10,448 nucleotides of DNA from Thiomonas sp. (GTDB taxonomy: Bacteria; Pseudomonadota; Gammaproteobacteria; Burkholderiales; Burkholderiaceae_C). Numbering within the stretch: position 1 is the stretch's first letter; each line of letters starts with the position of its first letter. Below the pieces are notes generated by a model, which was not told the origin of the DNA, did not search any database, and saw nothing but the letters and a program-made list of their open reading frames with translations. Position numbers and translations under genes: made by a program. Positions 229 to 9,694 of the stretch are shown here, in pieces. The DNA is taken from NCBI GenBank assembly GCA_028706735.1, contig JAQTVS010000075.1, forward strand, positions 1 to 10,448, in the 5' to 3' direction.

Positions 229-1683
229 ATGAGCATGACGGTTGAAGAGCGCAAGGCCGAAAACAAGGCCTTGATCGACGAGGTCCTCAAGGCCTATCCG
301 GACAAGATGGCCAAGCGCCGCGCCAAACATCTCGGTTCGTTCGAGGAAGGCAAGCCCGACTGCGGCGTCAAATCCAACATCAAGTCGCTGCCCGGTGTGA
401 TGACCATCCGCGGCTGTGCCTATGCCGGGTCCAAGGGCGTGGTGTGGGGGCCGATCAAGGACATGATCCACATCTCCCATGGTCCGGTGGGCTGCGGCCA
501 GTATTCCTGGGCCTCGCGCCGCAACTACTACATCGGCACCACCGGGGTCGATACCTTCGGCACCATGCAGTTCACCTCCGACTTCCAGGAGAAGGACATC
601 GTCTTCGGCGGCGACAAGAAGCTCGACAAGATCATCGACGAGATCCAGGACCTGTTCCCGCTGAACAAGGGGATTTCGATCCAGAGCGAATGCCCGATCG
701 GCCTGATCGGCGACGACATCGAAGCGGTGTCGAAGAAGAAGGCCAAGGAATACGAGGGGCACACCATCGTGCCGGTGCGCTGCGAAGGCTTCCGCGGCGT
801 GTCGCAGTCGCTGGGCCACCACCTCGCCAACGACGCCATCCGCGACTGGGTGTTCGACAAGGTCGATCCGAACAAACACGAATTCCAGGCCACGCCCTAC
901 GACGTGGCCATCATCGGCGACTACAACATCGGCGGCGATGCCTGGTCCAGCCGCATCCTGCTTGAAGAGATGGGTTTGCGGGTGATCGCGCAGTGGTCTG
1001 GCGACGGCACCCTGGCAGAGCTGGAGAACACGCCCAAGGCCAAGCTCAACGTGCTGCACTGCTATCGCTCGATGAATTACATCAGCCGCCACATGGAAGA
1101 GAAGTACGGCATACCCTGGGTGGAATACAACTTCTTCGGCCCGAGCATGATCGAAAAGAGCCTGCGCGAAATCGCCGGTCACTTCGACGACACCATCAAG
1201 GCCAAGGCCGAGGACGTGATCGCCAAGTACAAGCCATTGATGCAGGCCGTCATCGACAAGTACAAGTCGCGCCTGCAAGGCAAGAAGGTCATGCTGTTCG
1301 TCGGCGGCCTGCGTCCGCGCCACGTCATCGGCGCCTACGAGGACCTGGGCATGGAAGTGGTCGGCACCGGCTACGAGTTCGGCCACAACGACGACTATCA
1401 GCGCACCACCCACTACGTCAAGGACGGCACGCTGATCTACGACGACGTCACCGGCTACGAGTTCGAGAAGTTCGTCGAGAAGGTCCAGCCCGATCTGGTC
1501 GGCTCGGGCATCAAGGAAAAGTACGTGTTCCAGAAGATGGGCGTGCCTTTCCGCCAGATGCACAGTTGGGATTATTCCGGCCCCTACCACGGCTATGACG
1601 GCTTCGCCATCTTCGCCCGCGACATGGACATGGCGATCAACTCGCCGGTCTGGGGGCTGACCAAGGCGCCGTGGGCAGCCTGA
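229..1683 (+). CDS. nifD: Nitrogenase molybdenum-iron protein alpha chain NifD
   Basis: NifD is the alpha subunit of the MoFe protein (alpha2beta2), which carries FeMo-co, the site of N2 reduction. The 484-residue length fits Mo-type NifD. P-cluster cysteines are at C63, C89 and C155. Gln193 and His197 lie in the GVSQSLGHH motif that lines the active site. The cofactor ligands are C278 (in NVLHCYRS) and H445 (in QMHSWDY). These match A. vinelandii C62, C88, C154, Q191, H195, C275 and H442 with an offset of 1 to 3. The start at ATG 229 has AAGGAG at 215-220, and a second in-frame ATG follows two codons later. It follows the intercistronic hairpin and precedes nifK by 39 nt, so co-transcription is expected. 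No residue needed for catalysis appears missing. Confidence 0.98.
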
Positions 1684-1722
1684 GCCCGATGCCACGCAAC
1701 CAAGTCTGAAGGAGAAACTGTC

Positions 1723-3282
1723 ATGCCGCAAAGCGCCGAAACCATCCTCGACCACGAGATGCTGTTCCGCGAGCCCGAATACCGCGAGATGTTGCAGACC
1801 AAGCGGGCGAACTTCGAATACCGCGTCCCCGCCGAGGATCTGGCCAAGACCATCGAGTGGACCAAGAGTTGGGACTACCGCGAGAAGAACTTCGCGCGGG
1901 AGGCGCTCACCGTCAATCCTGCCAAGGCCTGCCAGCCGCTGGGCGCCGTGTTCGCCGCCAACGGCTTTGCCAAGACGCTGTCCTTCGTGCACGGCTCGCA
2001 GGGTTGCGTGGCGTATTACCGCTCGCATTTTTCGCGCCACTTCAAGGAGCCGACGTCCTGCGTGTCGTCCTCGATGACCGAGGACGCGGCGGTGTTCGGC
2101 GGCCTCAACAACATGGTCGACGGCCTGGCCAACACCTACAACCTGTACAAGCCGGACATGATCGCGGTGTCCACCACCTGCATGGCCGAAGTCATCGGCG
2201 ACGACCTGAACGCCTTCATCAAGACGTCCAAGGAAAAGGGCTCGGTGCCCGAAGACTTCGACGTGCCCTTCGCCCACACCCCGGCATTCGTCGGCAGCCA
2301 CATCACCGGATACGACAACGCCCTGCTCGGTGTGCTCAAGCACTTCTGGGACGGCAAGGCTGGAACCACCCAGGCACTGACGCGCAAGCCCGACGACAGC
2401 ATCAACTTCATCGGCGGCTTCGACGGCTATGTGGTCGGCAACATCCCCGAAATCCGCCGGATCTTCAAGGCATTCGAAGCAGACCACACCGTGCTCTGCG
2501 ACCCGTCGGACGTGTGGAACACGCCGACCGACGGCGAGTTCCGCATGTACGACGGCGGCACCACCAAGGCCGAGGTCGAGCGCGCGCTCAATGCCAAGGC
2601 GACCATCGTGTTCCAGCATTACAGCGCGGAAAAGACCGCGGCGTACATCGCCGAAAAAGGCCAGGAGGTGGTGGCCCTCAACAGCCCGATCGGGGTGTCG
2701 GGCACGGACAGGTTCCTCATGGAGTTGTCGCGTCTGACCGGCAAGCCGGTGCCGGCCAGCCTGGTCAAGGAGCGCGGCCGTCTGGTCGATGCCATTGCCG
2801 ACAGCCAGGCCCACCTGCACGGCAAGCGCTTCGCGCTGTATGGCGACCCGGACATGATGGTCGGCCTGACCCAGTTCCTGCTGGAGCTCGGCGCCGAACC
2901 GGTGCATGTGCTCAGCACCAACGGCGACAAGGATTGGGCTGAGCGCGTGCAGGCCATGCTCGATGCCAGTCCCTTCGGCAAAGGGTGCAAGGCGCATGCG
3001 AAAAAGGATCTGTGGCATCTGCGTTCCCTGCTGTTCACCGAGCCGGTGGATTTCCTGATCGGCAACACCTACGGCAAATACCTGGAACGCGACTGCAACG
3101 TGCCGCTGATCCGCATGGGCTTTCCCATCTTCGACCGCCACCACTGGCATCGCTACCCCATCTGGGGCTACGAAGGCACGATGCGCGTGCTGGTGTCCAT
3201 CCTCGACAAGCATTTCGACCGTCTGGACACGAGCACCATCGAGACTGCGGTGACCGACTTTTCCTACGACATCATTCGTTGA
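1723..3282 (+). CDS. nifK: Nitrogenase molybdenum-iron protein beta chain NifK
   Basis: NifK is the beta subunit of the MoFe protein. It shares the [8Fe-7S] P-cluster with NifD and helps dock the Fe protein. The 519-residue length is close to the 523 of A. vinelandii. The P-cluster cysteines fall at C70 ([10 protein letters not shown]), C95 ([10 protein letters not shown]) and C153 ([12 protein letters not shown]), the same numbers as in A. vinelandii. The N-terminal extension of about 60 residues is typical of Mo-type NifK and absent from short Vnf/Anf beta chains. The start at ATG 1723 has AAGGAGA at 1709-1715. No promoter is visible in the 39-nt gap after nifD, so it is read as part of nifHDK. 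The gene ends at TGA 3280-3282, just before a large hairpin. Confidence 0.98.
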
Positions 3283-3298
3283 GTCGGTGTGTCTGGAT

Positions 3299-3337
3299 CA
3301 TGCCGCTCCTCTCGCCTTGCGAGCGGGATGCGGCATG
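3299..3337 (+). promoter_or_regulatory. Long bulged hairpin after nifK, upstream of the Rrf2 gene
   Basis: CATGCCGC at 3299-3306 pairs perfectly with GCGGCATG at 3330-3337. Inside, TCCT pairs with GGGA (one G-U), and CTCGC at 3311-3315 pairs with GCGAG at 3319-3323 around a CTT loop. In total there are 17 pairs, interrupted only by single-base bulges at C3324 and T3329. No T-run follows, so it resembles a processing or stabilising stem, or a factor-dependent terminator, at the end of nifHDK. The function is inferred. Confidence 0.65.
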
Positions 3338-3353
3338 GAGCGAGTTTGCCGAT

Positions 3354-3359
3354 AGGGGG
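3354..3359 (+). promoter_or_regulatory. Ribosome binding site that sets the GTG start of the Rrf2 gene
   Basis: AGGGGG lies 6 nt before GTG 3366. The alternative in-frame ATG at 3300 sits inside the 5' arm of the 3299-3337 hairpin and would add 22 residues unlike any Rrf2 N-terminus. The GTG start is therefore preferred. Confidence 0.6.
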
Positions 3360-3365
3360 TGCGCC

Positions 3366-3911
3366 GTGCGTATCACATCCAAAGCCAGTTGTGCAATTTC
3401 CGCGTTGATCGACCTTGCGCTGCAGCAGCCCGGGACCTACACCAGCCTGCAAAGCATCGCGGCGCGACAGAAGATCTCGGTCTCGCATCTGGAGCACCTG
3501 TTCGCCAAATTGCGACGCAACGCGCTCGTGCTTTCGGTGCGCGGCCCTGGAGGCGGCTATGCCTTGGCGCGGGCCGCATGCACGATCAGCATCGCGGACA
3601 TCGCGAAAGCCGTGGATCAGCACGCCGAACAGGCCTTCGACCATGCCATGCCTGCGACGGGCCGGTTGACGCCGGAAGCCCTCATTGCCGAATCGCTCTG
3701 GGCAAGAGCAGACCTCTCCTTGCAGTGCATCCTGCAGGACATTGATCTGCAGAGCCTGGCCGAACCCCACCGCAAAGCGCAGGCAGAAATGAGCGAAGCA
3801 GCGCCGCAGTCGCAGCGATCTCCCGTGCTGCAACGGCCCAAGCCCATTGGCCAGACGCCGCGTGCACGCGCAGTGACTTGCGTCTTTGACCTGGCGGAAC
3901 TGGATATCTGA
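3366..3911 (+). CDS. Rrf2-family transcriptional regulator lacking IscR-type cluster cysteines
   Basis: This is a winged-helix DNA-binding protein of the Rrf2 family (IscR, NsrR, RirA, CymR). From GTG 3366 it has 181 residues. The N-terminus RITSKASCAISALIDLAL and the wing LSVRGPGGGYALAR (residues 56-69) are typical. In IscR the [2Fe-2S] ligands are C92, C98, C104 and H107. Here the same positions hold D92, T98, E104 and I107, and the only cysteines are C9, C72, C121 and one in the C-terminal tail. It is therefore unlikely to bind a cluster in the IscR way. The C-terminal 45 or so residues form a polar, Pro/Gln/Arg-rich tail. Its place between nifHDK and modABC suggests control of nitrogenase or molybdenum genes, but the target and signal cannot be read from the sequence. 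Confidence 0.85.
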   Translation: MRITSKASCAISALIDLALQQPGTYTSLQSIAARQKISVSHLEHLFAKLRRNALVLSVRGPGGGYALARAACTISIADIAKAVDQHAEQAFDHAMPATGRLTPEALIAESLWARADLSLQCILQDIDLQSLAEPHRKAQAEMSEAAPQSQRSPVLQRPKPIGQTPRARAVTCVFDLAELDI

Positions 3912-3925
3912 TCGCGTGCCGCCGC

Positions 3926-3943
3926 CTGGCAGCGGAGTGCCAG
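3926..3943. promoter_or_regulatory. Inverted repeat upstream of modA (candidate operator or attenuator)
   Basis: CTGGCA at 3926-3931 and TGCCAG at 3938-3943 are perfect 6-bp arms around a 6-nt spacer, in the 59-nt gap between the Rrf2 gene and modA. It could be a protein-binding site for the adjacent Rrf2 protein or a ModE-like regulator, or a small RNA hairpin. The dyad is visible, but any role is speculative. Confidence 0.3.
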
Positions 3944-3970
3944 CGCTGAGTTCTTCTTGAGGAGTGCACC

Positions 3971-4747
3971 ATGTTGATGGTTCGTGTCGTCCGCGTTGTC
4001 GTCATCTGCATGATCCTGAGCGGCACTGGATTGGCTGCCGCGCAAGGCGCGCCGCTCACAATCGCGGTGGCGGCGAATTTTACGCAGGCCATCGAGGACA
4101 TTGGCGCCGGTTTCGAGGCGAAAACGGGAGAAACGGTGAGGTTCAGCTTCGGCGCGACAGGGCAGCTTTACGCCCAGATTCGCAATGGCGCCCCATTCGA
4201 TGCGTTCTTTTCCGCCGACACCAAGACCCCGAAACTGGCAATGCAAGAGGGGCTCGCCGAGCCCGGCAGCTACGTCGTCTATGCGCGCGGCAAATTGGTG
4301 TTGTGGAGCCCGGCGCTGCCGGTCAAGGAGCAGGCAAGGCAGGTTCTTCATGCTGCAGCGTTCCAGCATCTGGCCATCACCAATCCCAAGGTCGCGCCTT
4401 ACGGCGCAGCGGCCATGGATGTGCTGAACAAACTGGGCGATACCCAGCGGATTCAGGACAAGTTGGTCAGTGGCAACAGCATCACCCAAACCTTCCAGTT
4501 CGTCAGCACGGGCAATGCCGAGCTGGGATTTGTCGCCCTGTCCCAGATTCTTGCGCCCAACAGCCCTGCCAAGGACAAGGGTCAAATCTGGCTGGCGCCG
4601 CAAGACCTCTACGCCCCGATTGATCAGGCCGCCATCATCCTCAAACGCACCAACAACCTGAAGTTGGCTCAAGAATTCATGGCCTATCTGCGCTCCCCCG
4701 ATGCGCAGAAGATCATCGAACGCTACGGCTACGAAGTGCCGCGCTGA
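3971..4747 (+). CDS. modA: Molybdate ABC transporter periplasmic binding protein ModA
   Basis: ModA captures molybdate (and tungstate) in the periplasm and delivers it to ModBC. The 258-residue precursor starts at ATG 3971 with GAGGAG at 3959-3964. A signal peptide covers about residues 1-25: a basic N-terminus, then a VVVICMILSGTGLAAA core, with cleavage near Gln25 to Ala27. Family motifs are IAVAANFT (31-38) at the oxyanion site, FGATGQLYAQI, AITNPKVAPYGAAAMDVL and GNAELGFVALSQI. The AANFT version resembles the ModA of diazotrophs such as Azotobacter rather than the AASL version of E. coli, a comparison made from memory. It is followed after 7 nt by modB. The neighbouring nifHDK suggests a dedicated Mo supply for FeMo-co. 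Confidence 0.95.
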   Translation: MLMVRVVRVVVICMILSGTGLAAAQGAPLTIAVAANFTQAIEDIGAGFEAKTGETVRFSFGATGQLYAQIRNGAPFDAFFSADTKTPKLAMQEGLAEPGSYVVYARGKLVLWSPALPVKEQARQVLHAAAFQHLAITNPKVAPYGAAAMDVLNKLGDTQRIQDKLVSGNSITQTFQFVSTGNAELGFVALSQILAPNSPAKDKGQIWLAPQDLYAPIDQAAIILKRTNNLKLAQEFMAYLRSPDAQKIIERYGYEVPR

Positions 4748-4754
4748 GGCGGAG

Positions 4755-5450
4755 ATGGAACTGTTCGGCGTCCCGGTCGATCTGCAGCCGCTGTGGCTGA
4801 CGCTGCAGGTTGCCGGATTGACGACTGCCATTTTGCTGATTCTCTCGACGCTGCTTGCCGCATGGCTGGCGGGCATGCGCTCGCGCGCCAAGGTGCTGAT
4901 CGAAGCTGTGGTGGCGCTGCCCCTCGTATTGCCGCCGACGGTGCTGGGGTTTTACTTGTTGATCGCGCTCAACCCAAATGGCGTGCTCACGCAGGCGCTG
5001 CGCACGCTCGGCTATCAAGGACAGTTGAGCTTCAGTTTCACCGGCCTGGTGATCGGTTCGGTGGTGTATTCGTTGCCCTTTGCGGTGCAGCCCCTGCTGC
5101 GCGCATTCGAAGCCGTTCCGCGGCGCCTGCTCGATGCCGCCTTCACGATGCGCGCGCGGCGCTGGGACCGCTTTTTCCACATCACCTTGCCGCTGTCGAA
5201 GGCAGGCTATCTGGTCGCCGGAACCCTGACCTTTGCGCATACGGTGGGAGAGTTCGGCGTCGTGCTCATGCTGGGTGGCAACATTCCAGGCAAGACGCGG
5301 GTCATCTCCATCGACATTTTTGATCACGTGGACAACTTGGAATACGCCCAGGCGCATGTGCTGTCGCTGTTCCTGCTGGTTTTTGCGGTGCTGGTCTTGA
5401 CGGTGCTCTACGCATTGAACCGGCAGTGGGACCGGCGGCACGGAGGTTGA
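4755..5450 (+). CDS. modB: Molybdate ABC transporter permease ModB
   Basis: ModB is the inner-membrane permease that forms a dimer and the molybdate channel of ModB2C2. The start at ATG 4755 gives 231 residues, the usual size. An upstream in-frame ATG at 4701 lies inside modA and would add 18 charged residues, so it was not used. GAGG overlapping the modA stop is the likely ribosome site. Five hydrophobic segments are seen, at about 15-38, 47-70, 93-113, 153-173 and 202-222. The cytoplasmic EAA coupling loop is at 127-146 (DAA...ITLP). At residue 133, where the motif normally has Gly, there is Arg (codon CGC at 5151-5153). This loop normally docks on the Q-loop region of ModC, which is itself abnormal here. 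Confidence 0.95.
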   Translation: MELFGVPVDLQPLWLTLQVAGLTTAILLILSTLLAAWLAGMRSRAKVLIEAVVALPLVLPPTVLGFYLLIALNPNGVLTQALRTLGYQGQLSFSFTGLVIGSVVYSLPFAVQPLLRAFEAVPRRLLDAAFTMRARRWDRFFHITLPLSKAGYLVAGTLTFAHTVGEFGVVLMLGGNIPGKTRVISIDIFDHVDNLEYAQAHVLSLFLLVFAVLVLTVLYALNRQWDRRHGG

Positions 5451-5454
5451 TGCC

Positions 5455-6684
5455 ATGCTCGAAGGTGACATGCATCTCAAACTGGGGCGATTTTCATTGC
5501 AGACCGGCGGATTCGCCTGGCCCAATACTGGGGTGACCGCCGTGTTCGGCCCGTCGGGTTGCGGCAAGTCGACCTTGCTGCGCTGTCTTGCCGGGCTGGA
5601 ACCGCAGGTCCGGGGGCGGTTGTCTTGCTGCGGCACGCCCTGGCTGGACGGGCGGCAACAGGCGCCGGCCTATTCGCGTGACATCGGTTTCGTGTTTCAG
5701 GACGCCGCGCTGTTCCCGCATCTGAGTGTGCGTCAAAACCTGCAGTTCGCCGCCCACCGCGCGGGCGCCGATGACATCGAGGTCGAACTGGACGCACGCC
5801 CCTCGGGTTTGACGCGCTCGTCGCGTCATCGCAATCTCGGCTTCGTCTTCCAGGAGCCCTCGCTCGTCTTGCATCTCAACGCGCGCGGCAATCTGCAGTT
5901 CACCACCAAACGGGCGCGGGTGGGCGGCTCCGACATCGAGCGTGTGGCCTCGGAGGTGGGGCTGGAGGGTAAACTCGATCGGGGGGTGAACCTGCTGTCC
6001 GGGGGCGAGCGGCAGCGCGTCGCCATCGCCCGCGCTCTGCTTTCCAGTCCCCGTCTGCTGCTGATGGACGAACCCCTTGCCGCGCTTGACTGGCGCTCCA
6101 AGGCGGACATCCTCGGCCTGCTGCAAGACGTCATCGCGCGCACCGGGTTGCCCGTCGTATTCATCACCCATGCGCCAGCCGAAGTGCTGCGGCTGGCAGA
6201 TCGCGTGGTGTTCATGCAGGACGGACGCATCACGGGCATCGAATCCCTGGTGGATGCCGCAGCACGCGCCGACTCTCCGCTGTTCGAAGAAGAAGGGGAT
6301 TGCAGCGCCGTGTTGCAGGCCGCGCCAGCCGGACAAGAACATGGGCTGCACGGGTATGCGCTGGGCGCGACGGACGTCTTCTGGCTAGCGCCGGAGGCGC
6401 CGGCCAAGCAACGCCGGGGCGCGACGACCCGCCTGCTCGTGCGCGCCCGGGATGTGGGGATTGCGCTGAGCAAGCCGTTGGATGCGTCCATCGTCAATCA
6501 ATTCCAGGCGCATATCGTGGACATTCAGCCTGCCACGCGGCCCGAGCACGTCCTGCTGCAACTTGAGCTGGGTTGCGGCCAAAGGCTGTTTGCAGAAGTG
6601 ACCCGCGCGGCTCTGCTGCGTTTGCAGCTTCGCACCGGAATGCAGGTGTGGGCACTGATCAAGGCTGTCGCGCTCGTCGTCTGA
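5455..6684 (+). CDS. modC: Molybdate ABC transporter ATPase ModC with a duplicated Q-loop segment
   Basis: ModC is the ATPase that powers ModB2C2. The start at ATG 5455 has GGAGG at 5442-5446, 4 nt after the modB stop. In order: Walker A GPSGCGKST (32-40), a first Q-loop GFVFQDAALFPHL (78-90, Gln82), a second Q-loop GFVFQEPSLVLHL (129-141, Gln133), signature LLSGGERQRVAIARAL (180-195), Walker B LLLMDEPLAALD (201-212), H-loop VVFITHAPAE (234-243), and a C-terminal Mop/TOBE domain (about 325-405) that binds molybdate in this family. At 409 residues it is about 50 longer than usual ModC, and the excess is exactly the repeated segment. Residues 75-103 and 126-154 are identical at 16 of 29 positions. 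Both copies are in frame. Whether the protein is active cannot be told from sequence. Confidence 0.93.
   Translation: MLEGDMHLKLGRFSLQTGGFAWPNTGVTAVFGPSGCGKSTLLRCLAGLEPQVRGRLSCCGTPWLDGRQQAPAYSRDIGFVFQDAALFPHLSVRQNLQFAAHRAGADDIEVELDARPSGLTRSSRHRNLGFVFQEPSLVLHLNARGNLQFTTKRARVGGSDIERVASEVGLEGKLDRGVNLLSGGERQRVAIARALLSSPRLLLMDEPLAALDWRSKADILGLLQDVIARTGLPVVFITHAPAEVLRLADRVVFMQDGRITGIESLVDAAARADSPLFEEEGDCSAVLQAAPAGQEHGLHGYALGATDVFWLAPEAPAKQRRGATTRLLVRARDVGIALSKPLDASIVNQFQAHIVDIQPATRPEHVLLQLELGCGQRLFAEVTRAALLRLQLRTGMQVWALIKAVALVV
5674..5766 (+). repeat. Q-loop segment of modC, copy 1 (canonical)
   Basis: It encodes residues 74-104, including GFVFQDAALFPH, close to the standard ModC Q-loop. It is partnered with the copy at 5827-5919. 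Of the 16 identical residues in the two copies, 9 use different codons, so the duplication is old or came from a related gene. Confidence 0.8.
5827..5919 (+). repeat. Q-loop segment of modC, copy 2 (divergent)
   Basis: It encodes residues 125-155, including GFVFQEPSLVLH, where the usual LFPH has become LVLH. This copy is joined directly to the helical domain and signature motif, while copy 1 is joined to Walker A. A linker of about 20 residues with no clear homology separates them. Confidence 0.8.
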
Positions 6685-6752: not shown

Positions 6753-8234
6753 TCAATGGACGGAATTGGCAGAGGCGAATCCGACGCGCTGCGTCGGCTT
6801 GCGCGGCAGTTTCAACACAGCCTCCAAGCCGCCATCCTGTCGATTGCGCAAGCTCAGGTCCCCACCCGCCGCGCGTGCAATGTCGCGTGCGATGCCAAGC
6901 CCGAGGCCGGTGCCCCCTGTTTCGCGGCTGCGGGAGGATTCAAGCCGATAGAACGGTTCGAACACTTTGTCGAGTTCCTCATCCGGGATGCCACGGCCTT
7001 GGTCCTGGATGCGCAGCGTTAAGGCAGAAGCGTTGTCGTCGACAATGACCGCAGCTTGTCCGCCATACAAAATCGCGTTGTCGATCAGATTGGACAGACA
7101 ACGTTTGAGCCGCGCCGGATCGCCCAGAAACGGTCCGATGGCACGCCCTCGGATCTGGACGTCACGTCCCATCTCTTCGTGATCCGCTTGAAGACTCTCC
7201 AGCAGGGCCATGATGTCGATGGGCTGCGCCTGCTGAGGCTGGTCGAGCCCGCGCATGAAATCCAGTGTGTCCTTCACCATGTGCTCCATTTCCAGCAGGT
7301 CTTGTTCAAACCGGGCGCGTATCTCGTCATCCTCAAGCAGTTCCGTGCGTAACCGCATGCGGGTGATCGGCGTTTTCAGATCGTGTGACATCGCCGAAAA
7401 AATGCGCGTGCGATCCGCAATGAAACGAATCAGACGCGCCTGCATGGTGTTGAAGGCGTGCGCAGCAACCCGCACCTCGGTGGGGCCAAGTTCAGGCAGC
7501 GGAGGACGGTTGATGTCCTTGCCGAGCGAATCGGCAGCCGAGGACAAAATCGCCAAGGGTCGAATCATCCAGCGCACAGCGGCGTAGGACAGGACAAGCA
7601 CGGTGACCAATAAAACCAGCAAGGTCAGCAGCAATCGCCAGGGGGGCTCTTTGGCGCTTTGGTGAAGCTGGGTTGTGAAGGCGACCCAGCTTCCATCCTG
7701 CAATTGCACCTGGATCAAAAAGCCCAGCTTGCTTGCCATGAACGACTGCATGGACGACAGCGCAGTAGGCGACATCCGCGACATGGCCGCGGCCATGTCC
7801 GGCATCTCGGTCATCCCCGAATGGGGAAGGTGCGCCACGGCAGATGCGCCCAAGCTGGGCCATGTGGCGCCCGCCGAGACAAGAAGGCGGCGTTCATCTC
7901 CCAAAGCAGTCCGCAGCGCCATAGAAAACATGGCAGTTTGGGGGAGATTCGTGACAGCGCCGCGGGGGCTCGTGGGCGCAGATTCCAGTTCCACGATTTG
8001 AGGCGGCACGCTCAAGACACTGGCGAGGCGCTGGCGCTCGCCCTGGGGCACAGAATCCAACAGCTTGACGACGTCGGCAATGCGTTGCGCAGATTCCATT
8101 CCGCTGGTGCGCAGCAGCACACGATCACGCTCAGCGAAGTTAATCGACGCGCTCAAAAGTTGCGCCAGTATCAGCCCAATGGAGAGAATGAGCATCATTC
8201 GGCCAAATAGCGATGCTGGCAGCAACCGTTTCAC
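6753..8234 (-). CDS. Two-component sensor histidine kinase with Met-rich periplasmic sensor
   Basis: This is an inner-membrane sensor kinase of 493 residues that should phosphorylate the regulator encoded just upstream. Domains in order: TM1 about 12-31, a periplasmic domain of about 165 residues, TM2 about 199-220, HAMP about 221-273, HisKA with the H-box SAMSHDLKTPITR (His284), then HATPase_c with N-box NLIDN (382-386), G1 DQGRGIP (411-417), F-box FEPFYR and G2 GTGLGLGIA. The periplasmic part has a cluster of seven methionines at 141, 144, 147, 151, 154, 162 and 166, with H135 and H138 nearby, chemistry suited to Cu(I) or Ag(I). The start is GTG (8234-8232), overlapping the regulator's TGA as GTGA, so translation is probably coupled. 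The kinase core is most like the EnvZ class. The ligand is inferred from the Met cluster and the neighbours. Confidence 0.92.
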   Translation of the reverse strand: MKRLLPASLFGRMMLILSIGLILAQLLSASINFAERDRVLLRTSGMESAQRIADVVKLLDSVPQGERQRLASVLSVPPQIVELESAPTSPRGAVTNLPQTAMFSMALRTALGDERRLLVSAGATWPSLGASAVAHLPHSGMTEMPDMAAAMSRMSPTALSSMQSFMASKLGFLIQVQLQDGSWVAFTTQLHQSAKEPPWRLLLTLLVLLVTVLVLSYAAVRWMIRPLAILSSAADSLGKDINRPPLPELGPTEVRVAAHAFNTMQARLIRFIADRTRIFSAMSHDLKTPITRMRLRTELLEDDEIRARFEQDLLEMEHMVKDTLDFMRGLDQPQQAQPIDIMALLESLQADHEEMGRDVQIRGRAIGPFLGDPARLKRCLSNLIDNAILYGGQAAVIVDDNASALTLRIQDQGRGIPDEELDKVFEPFYRLESSRSRETGGTGLGLGIARDIARAAGGDLSLRNRQDGGLEAVLKLPRKPTQRVGFASANSVH

Positions 8235-8953
8235 GGCGTTCCCTCGACGGGCACTGACAGCACATAGCCCATGCCCCGCACCGTCTTGATCAGCAGCGGG
8301 TCGCGCGGATCATCTCCAAGCCGTTGACGCAAGCGACTGACCTGGACATCAATACTGCGATCGAGCGGGTCAGCCTCCCGGCCTTGTGTGAGATCCACCA
8401 ACTGATCGCGGTTAAGAACCCGGTTGGGATGGCTCAGGAAAATCCGCAACAAGCGGTATTCCGCGCCACTCAGCGCCACCACCACACCCGCCGGAGAAAT
8501 CAGATGGCGATGCGTGGTGTTGAGTGTCCAGCCTGCAAAGTGCGCTTCGTGCCAATCTTCGGGCTGCAAATTGCTCGGCAGGCTGCGGGCGCGGCGCAGG
8601 ATGACCTTGATGCGGGCGAGCAACTCGCGCGCGCTGAAGGGCTTGGTCAGATAGTCGTCGGCGCCCATCTCCAACCCAACGACGCGGTCGGTCTCGTCGC
8701 TGCGCGCCGTGAGCATCAACACGGGAATGTCGGATTTGGCCCGGAGCTGGCGGCAGAGCGTCAGACCGTCGTCTCCCGGGAGCATCAGATCGAGCACAAT
8801 CAAGTCGATGCGCGCGGCGACGAGGGCGCGTTCCATGGCCTTGCCGTCCCCCACTGCGGTGACGCGCAGCCCGTTCTTTTGCAAATAGGCGCTCAGCAGA
8901 TTGCGGATCTCGCCATCGTCGTCGACGATCAGAATGTGGTCAGGTATGTCCAT
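8231..8953 (-). CDS. OmpR/PhoB-family response regulator
   Basis: This is a DNA-binding response regulator of 240 residues, partner of the downstream kinase. The receiver domain covers about 5-120, with acidic pocket D11-D13, phosphoacceptor D55 (LIVLDLMLPG), T82 and K104 (YLTKPFS). The C-terminal winged helix covers about 140-234, with LSGAEYRLLRIFL, RSIDVQVSRLRQRLGDD and KTVRGMGYVL. It starts at ATG 8953-8951, with no strong Shine-Dalgarno upstream. The gene is transcribed away from the Spy-like gene at 9173 with a 219-nt gap, the usual arrangement for a regulator controlling a divergent target. It is OmpR-like by sequence, and a copper or envelope-stress role rests on context. Confidence 0.95.
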   Translation of the reverse strand: MDIPDHILIVDDDGEIRNLLSAYLQKNGLRVTAVGDGKAMERALVAARIDLIVLDLMLPGDDGLTLCRQLRAKSDIPVLMLTARSDETDRVVGLEMGADDYLTKPFSARELLARIKVILRRARSLPSNLQPEDWHEAHFAGWTLNTTHRHLISPAGVVVALSGAEYRLLRIFLSHPNRVLNRDQLVDLTQGREADPLDRSIDVQVSRLRQRLGDDPRDPLLIKTVRGMGYVLSVPVEGTP

Positions 8954-9172: not shown

Positions 9173-9694
9173 ATGAAATACAACCGTAGAACACTGGGAC
9201 TTGCCGCCGCCCTCTCACTCGCCGCGATCGGTGCTGCCTACGCACAATCCCCTGCGCAACCGCAGCAATGGGGTTGCATGCAGGGGGAAGGGCCGGGCAT
9301 GGGCATGATGGGCGGCCGCGGCGTGGCTGCAGGCATGATGGGGCGCGGTGATCCGGCTGCCGGGATGGAAAATCGGCTCAGCGCGATGAAGGCGCAATTG
9401 CAGATCACGCCGCAGCAAGAAGCGGCGTGGAACGCCTTCGCCCTCCAAGCCAAGAAACAGGCTGATGCGATGCAATCCATGCGGGCCACCCTGATCGAGG
9501 CAAAGGGCAATGCTCCGGACCGTATGGCGAAACGTACCCAGTTCATGCAAGAGCGCGTCGCAGGCATGGAAACCATGACCACGACGATGAAAACGCTCTA
9601 TGCCGAACTGAGCCCGGCGCAGCAAGCCATACTGAATCAGCATTTTGGCGCGATGCGCGGAACCCGTCGCGGAGCGCCTGCGGGCGCGCAGTAA
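9173..9694 (+). CDS. Spy/CpxP-like (LTXXQ) Met-rich periplasmic protein
   Basis: This is an exported protein of 173 residues, probably a periplasmic metal-stress chaperone of the Spy/LTXXQ group. A signal peptide covers residues 1-24 (NRRT, a hydrophobic Ala/Leu core, cleavage after AYA). A Met/Gly-rich stretch follows at about 36-65 (with GMGMMGG and GMMGRG). The helical part has the LTXXQ-type motifs ITPQQ (78-82) and LSPAQ (146-150), both starting helices as in Spy and CpxP. Only one cysteine is present (C35). GGAG at 9162-9165 supports ATG 9173. In other bacteria such proteins are induced by envelope or copper stress through a two-component system. The divergent kinase/regulator pair is the obvious candidate here, which is inference. 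Confidence 0.8.
   Translation: MKYNRRTLGLAAALSLAAIGAAYAQSPAQPQQWGCMQGEGPGMGMMGGRGVAAGMMGRGDPAAGMENRLSAMKAQLQITPQQEAAWNAFALQAKKQADAMQSMRATLIEAKGNAPDRMAKRTQFMQERVAGMETMTTTMKTLYAELSPAQQAILNQHFGAMRGTRRGAPAGAQ

Follow-up and report, generated by a model that had tools for sequence, protein, structure and literature searches.

The ATP-binding cassette (ABC) ATPase ModC, encoded in a 10,448-nucleotide stretch of Thiomonas sp. DNA (assembly GCA_028706735.1, contig JAQTVS010000075.1; the window), carries two copies of the Q-loop in tandem. The Q-loop, which normally occurs once per nucleotide-binding domain (NBD), links ATP chemistry to the permease. The double Q-loop is real, is conserved in three related proteins and is very rare. 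The reading we favor, at about even odds (a probability of roughly 0.5), is that copy 1 does the work of the Q-loop, with copy 2 an accessory element that is under constraint and may tune coupling.

The two copies are identical at 16 of 29 residues and at 59 of 87 bases. Their local alignment score is 91, while 5000 shuffles gave a mean of 19.8 (standard deviation 4.0) and a maximum of 43. This bears out a first-pass annotation of this DNA, which had described two tandem Q-loop segments matching at 16 of 29 positions; the repeat it placed at 5674..5919 stands, but those limits are one codon too wide at each end. Its count of different codons at nine of the 16 shared residues was reproduced. 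Similarity extends to a common “DIE” (residues 107–109 and 160–162), where 24 bases are 75% alike and, as this lies past the 29 residues, the repeated unit comprises about 37–40 residues plus a linker of about 13. Over the 29 codons, the copies of the window gene differ by 1.02 synonymous (dS) and 0.30 nonsynonymous (dN) changes per site, values that fit an old split under constraint and are silent on when, or in which gene, that constraint was at work. Copy 1 has a guanine-plus-cytosine content of 0.76 at third codon positions, compared with 0.73 for residues 104–125 and 0.86 for copy 2; residues 1–74 and 155–409 have 0.77 and 0.78, respectively.

Among ModC homologues, three further clusters carry the second copy: P0002 (413 residues, 80% identical), P0003 (408 residues, 77%) and P0004 (244 residues, incomplete, 76%). 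The list of relatives is the best 120 of 8000 scored proteins and consists of these four carriers, the window protein included, and 116 proteins with a single Q-loop and 350–387 residues. The spacing from one GFVFQ core to the other is 51 residues in all four carriers. With residues 98–164 as the query against 5.8 billion proteins, just the four carriers emerged from 43 candidates (E-values up to 10). This search reaches only proteins that have short exact words in common with the query, and within that reach, as in the sampled genomes, a fifth carrier was not found.

A profile of the insert region gave the same picture. It scored over threshold only in the window's own genome, that is, in 1 of 399 genomes of the family (E = 1e-22) and in 1 of 399, 1 of 369 and 1 of 398 of the order, class and phylum, respectively (E = 1e-27); these samples overlap, and the best 12–13 candidates were scored per genome. 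For the 13 genomes of the genus, every candidate was scored at a loose threshold and 10 matched, with the whole profile covered by the window gene only. The other matches start at profile positions 25–29, as expected of a single Q-loop. In a scan of genome contigs, from which the window's own genome and very close ones may be missing, no match among the best 80 loci starts before query residue 9, and the top match is a single-Q-loop ModC from Candidatus Accumulibacter (55%).

An assembly artefact or a recent slip might be suspected, as the genome assembly is fragmented into 425 contigs. Against this, the three further clusters come from other public sources and carry the duplication at 76–80% identity, and the shared residues of the two copies use different codons as given above, so that this explanation can practically be discounted, as the first-pass annotation had also argued. 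In the open-access literature searched, which leaves subscription journals largely outside, listings and abstract openings showed no described duplicated Q-loop. The duplication is an unusual feature for ModC. Past residue 216 or so, the gene call of P0004 parts from those of the other carriers, and its last portion is unrelated to them, which would fit a contig end, a frame error or a real truncation alike.

Conservation among the four carriers was expressed as mean pairwise identity and invariant positions. Mean pairwise identity is 0.80 for residues 1–74 (50 of 74 invariant), 0.92 for copy 1 (26 of 29), 0.94 for residues 104–112, 0.44 for residues 113–125, 0.84 for copy 2 and 0.88 for residues 155–216 (48 of 62); the remaining counts are in Table 1. 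The variable stretch is therefore the linker and not copy 2. This bears on the possibility that copy 2, the product of an old in-frame duplication, is a neutral passenger that a surface loop tolerates and that is now decaying. The insertion does fall where the alignment of single-copy ModC proteins has a short loop, and copy 2 is without most of the positions of the second conservation class described below. However, its identity is comparable to that of residues 1–74, and both the most strictly conserved positions and the exact spacing survive in every carrier, making a passenger unlikely.

The positions in question were defined using the 116 single-copy relatives. Nine of the 29 are at least 99% conserved (in copy 1 numbering, R75, G78, V80, F81, Q82, L86, N95, L96 and R102), and copy 2 retains all nine in all four carriers, including the glutamine. 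Seven more are 90–99% conserved (D83, A84, A85, F87, P88, H89 and V92) and sit in or beside the permease-docking stretch. Here, copy 2 retains none in all four carriers: the equivalents of A84, F87, P88 and V92 are replaced in every one, and the window protein keeps one of the seven. Copy 1 retains all 16 positions conserved at 90% or above in each carrier. At the 13 less conserved positions, all four carriers have the family's commonest residue at seven in copy 1 and at five in copy 2. The hypergeometric chance of keeping nine of nine, given 14 of 29 kept overall, is 2e-4, which is purely descriptive because the pattern had already been noticed in the alignment when the 99% and 90% thresholds were chosen.

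Relative to the glutamine, copy 1 has Phe87 at position +5 and Pro88 at +6, where copy 2 has Val138 and Leu or Ser, respectively; at +8, both have Leu. In MalK, the glutamine is Q82 and residues F81–Y87 accommodate the MalF/G coupling helix, according to PMC7658222. In LptB, the glutamine is Q85, residues F90, R91 and L93 (the +8 position) are in a cluster contacting the LptFG coupling helices, and F90A is lethal, as described in PMC5082905. If these residue roles carry over to ModC, copy 2 would have kept the strict frame and lost most, but not all, of the docking set. The description of copy 1 as canonical and on the Walker A side, and of copy 2 as divergent and on the signature side, is supported; the “LVLH” that had been assigned to copy 2 holds for the window protein and is private to it, the other carriers having LVSH or LVSY.

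In the AlphaFold model made from the deep alignment, the core holds copy 1, and copy 2 forms an excursion modelled with low confidence. The suggestion that one copy may loop out is plausible on this model, although the alignment behind it itself favors copy 1 for the core. The reverse arrangement, in which copy 2 does the work and copy 1 loops out ahead of the core strand, is quite improbable. Copy 2 adjoins the signature helix directly, and the higher-scoring stretch of both the Pfam ABC_tran and TIGR02142 matches runs from copy 2 onwards, but that portion of the protein is simply longer. In addition, copy 1 is the more conserved, with 16 of the 16 family positions versus the nine that copy 2 keeps in all four carriers, and it is copy 1 that the model places at the core.

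In the favored explanation, a unit of about 37–40 residues, spanning the core β-strand, the Q-loop, the first helix of the helical subdomain and the start of the next helix, has become a tandem repeat. Copy 1 would do the work, with Gln82 at the ATP site and the residues that follow lining the groove for the ModB coupling helix. Copy 2, held on the variable linker, would exit the helical subdomain between helices 92–102 and 158–167. It would have been selected as an accessory that tunes coupling between the ATPase and the permease, probably by packing on or near the same subdomain. This regulatory role is the weakest step of the explanation. A second unit with its strict positions intact and most docking positions changed looks like a natural separation of two roles, and a double-Q-loop ModC would make the coupling of hydrolysis to transport testable in one protein.

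Several observations weigh against this explanation. Loss of the docking residues is incomplete, as copy 2 retains the equivalents of D83 in two carriers and of A85 and H89 in three each, and it keeps those of Leu86 and Leu90 (the LptB L93 position, also a contact) in all four. A mere surface add-on would hardly be expected to keep Gln133 and all of the strict positions. Because MAFFT placed the single-copy relatives on copy 1 in the alignment, the model was steered to its copy-1 answer, and prediction from the four carriers alone gave no usable model (predicted local distance difference test score, pLDDT, of 35.7). Finally, the window modC lies near nitrogenase (nif) genes, a setting that does not require the second copy: genome G049 of the same order encodes a single-Q-loop ModC on the contig (C71) that carries its nifD, about 9 kb further downstream.

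Alternatively, the two copies could compete for a single strand and Q-loop slot. If copy 1 occupied it, ATP hydrolysis would be coupled to ModB; if copy 2 did, the glutamine would be present but the docking residues wrong, so that the ATPase would be uncoupled or inactive. Signals, for example molybdate at the TOBE domain, would tip the equilibrium between the two states. The layout would permit this since, with copy 1 on the Walker A side and copy 2 on the signature side, either could fill the slot while the other is looped out. The variability of the 13-residue linker is consistent with such a switch, as is the retention in copy 2 of every strict position together with the loss of most of the next class. 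Conversely, the sole usable model shows one state, a swap of core strands inside the ABC fold would presumably be costly and the loss of docking residues fits simple relaxed constraint, too. Competition for the slot is an unlikely possibility. The fuller proposal, a natural duplicated-segment switch in an ABC importer in which the docked copy, coupled or uncoupled, sets molybdate uptake beside the nitrogenase cluster, is rather doubtful. Engineered sequence duplications in T4 lysozyme reportedly act as conformational switches, and there, too, two segment copies are said to compete for one slot, although by design and in a different fold. The probability that lies beyond the five readings considered (the favored one, competition for the slot, copy 2 at work, a passenger and an artefact) is left to explanations not thought of.

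Other ABC proteins offer partial parallels. Importer ATPases of the MalK, PotA and CysA type have the same layout of Q-loop and coupling groove as ModC, and we know of no repeated Q-loop unit among them. MalK Q82 even bears the same residue number as ModC Gln82 (PMC7658222). The arm of the ABC-F proteins, which is not known to be a copy of the Q-loop unit, is a further likeness. In Mycobacterium tuberculosis EttA, as given in PMC8782954, the arm (residues 94–136) lies between the NBD1 parts 2–93 and 137–240, and by analogy only it resembles copy 2 as an extra element of about 40 residues inside an NBD, touching a partner there. ABC-F proteins, as that source has it, contain two tandem NBDs per chain, whereas window ModC has one NBD followed by TOBE, with modB beside its gene, and is set apart from them.

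As to the origin of copy 2, internal tandem duplication is the simpler account, with recombination with a related modC as the alternative; the two are indistinguishable because only 29 residues are available and copy 2 is no closer to any clade. The first-pass annotation had proposed recombination with a second modC. Such a gene is present in the genome, on contig C355 (361 residues, one Q-loop), but copy 2 (four-carrier average) shares 17.5 of 29 residues with its product (P0107) versus 16–18 of 29 with its own copy 1, and the proposal is unsupported. The 235 listed relatives, namely 116 near ones and 119 of the 120 in a second clade (one lacks the search pattern), share at most 18.5 of 29 with copy 2, this best value being in the near set. 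The means are 15.8 of 29 for the near relatives and 15.3 of 29 for the second clade, and relatives closer to copy 2 than to copy 1 number 0 of 116 and 2 of 119, respectively. A foreign source in that second clade (Candidatus Accumulibacter, Opitutia; LGFVFQEPSL core) had been hinted at by the best 80 loci of the genome-contig scan, 10 of which were translated; the signal vanished in the wider comparison.

In a tree of 66 ModC proteins, which the three complete carriers entered without linker and copy 2, the carriers have their own stem (0.59 changes per column, support 100/100). This stem is nested in a larger group, with the branch order there open, to which the C355-type ModC from the window's genome also belongs. 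The C355-type ModC groups with P0022, labelled Thiomonas sp. Viral contigs encoded no relative, no plasmid among the 5000 best records matched at 60% identity or above and, within the window, no Rfam family exceeded its gathering score.

By the defining features tested, the window protein is a genuine ModC, with molybdate uptake as its predicted function. The reading frame has no internal stops and scores 342.3 bits against TIGR02142 (curated cut-off 285.05), the match being split over two stretches. Translation and alignment give the order Walker A, Q-loop (twice), signature, Walker B and H-loop, followed by the C-terminal TOBE/Mop domain, and modA and modB lie directly upstream. Thus the motifs previously described as intact are all present in an open frame. 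Its best structural match is ModC of the ModB2C2 importers (solved examples 3d31 chain A and 2onk chain A), which have the same motif order, TOBE domain and modAB neighbors. Window ModC differs in its two Q-loops and its length from the single Q-loop and roughly 350–390 residues that are customary, but not defining, for the family, and that the other 116 listed relatives have.

Table 1. Coordinates of modC, its motifs and repeat units, and the genes upstream (window positions)
Feature	Position	Strand	Basis
nifD	229-1683	+	
nifK	1723-3282	+	
Rrf2-type regulator	domain from ~3369, frame to 3911	+	
modA, molybdate-binding protein	3971..4747	+	TIGR01256, 239.3 bits
modB permease, start at residue 19 of open reading frame 4701-5450	4755..5450	+	TIGR02141, 227.1 bits
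modC, molybdate ABC transporter ATPase, 409 residues	5455..6684	+	open reading frame translation; TIGR02142; TOBE PF03459
Walker A GPSGCGKS, residues 32-39	5548..5571	+	translation; G32, S34, G35, G37, K38 invariant in 120 rows
Q-loop copy 1, residues 75-103 (RDIGFVFQDAALFPHLSVRQNLQFAAHRA), Gln82 codon 5698-5700	5677..5763	+	repeat alignment; core strand in model
Conserved tail of unit 1, residues 104-112 (GADDIEVEL)	5764..5790	+	8/9 invariant, four carriers
Variable linker, residues 113-125	5791..5829	+	2/13 invariant, mean pairwise identity 0.44
Q-loop copy 2, residues 126-154 (RNLGFVFQEPSLVLHLNARGNLQFTTKRA), Gln133 codon 5851-5853	5830..5916	+	21/29 invariant, four carriers
ABC signature LSGGE, residues 181-185	5995..6009	+	translation; L181-G184 invariant in 120 rows
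Walker B LLLMDE, residues 201-206	6055..6072	+	translation; D205, E206 invariant in 120 rows
H-loop His239	6169..6171	+	translation; nearly invariant in 120 rows
TOBE domain, residues 345-407	6487..6675	+	Pfam PF03459, 47.4 bits

From 229 to 6684, nifDK, the Rrf2-type regulator and modABC form one row on the plus strand. Nitrogenase requires molybdenum, so that a dedicated, perhaps specially tuned, importer would make sense here. In genome G004 of the same genus, nifH (recognized from its open frame only), nifD, nifK and an Rrf2-like frame follow the same order, and the DNA is 79–86% alike as far as window position ~3603. The ~2.5 kb left on that contig gave no match to modA or modB, and the sole ModC of this genome above the family cut-off is of the single-copy C355 type, on another contig. 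The double-Q-loop pump therefore looks like an accessory beside the nitrogenase genes. Within the window's genome, the ModB of C355 is identical to window ModB at 141 of 201 residues.

The listed open reading frame for the regulator, 2985–3911, extends back into nifK; its Rrf2 domain begins only at residue 129–130, so the true start is probably near 3366. Positions 1–4380 of C355 hold a partial modA, modB, the single-Q-loop modC, a TSUP-like frame (assigned by eye) and, at the contig end, a modA-like and a partial modB-like frame. The genus has two quite different types of single-copy ModC, one in G003, G006, G010 and G011 and the other in G000, G004, G005, G007, G008 and G009; G001, G002 and G012 have no ModC above the family cut-off. 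Downstream of modC, an EnvZ/OmpR-like two-component pair is encoded on the minus strand (6753–8953), and a divergent gene for a small LTXXQ-family protein (PF07813) follows on the plus strand (9173–9694), an arrangement that presumably resembles the Cpx/Spy-type envelope stress systems.
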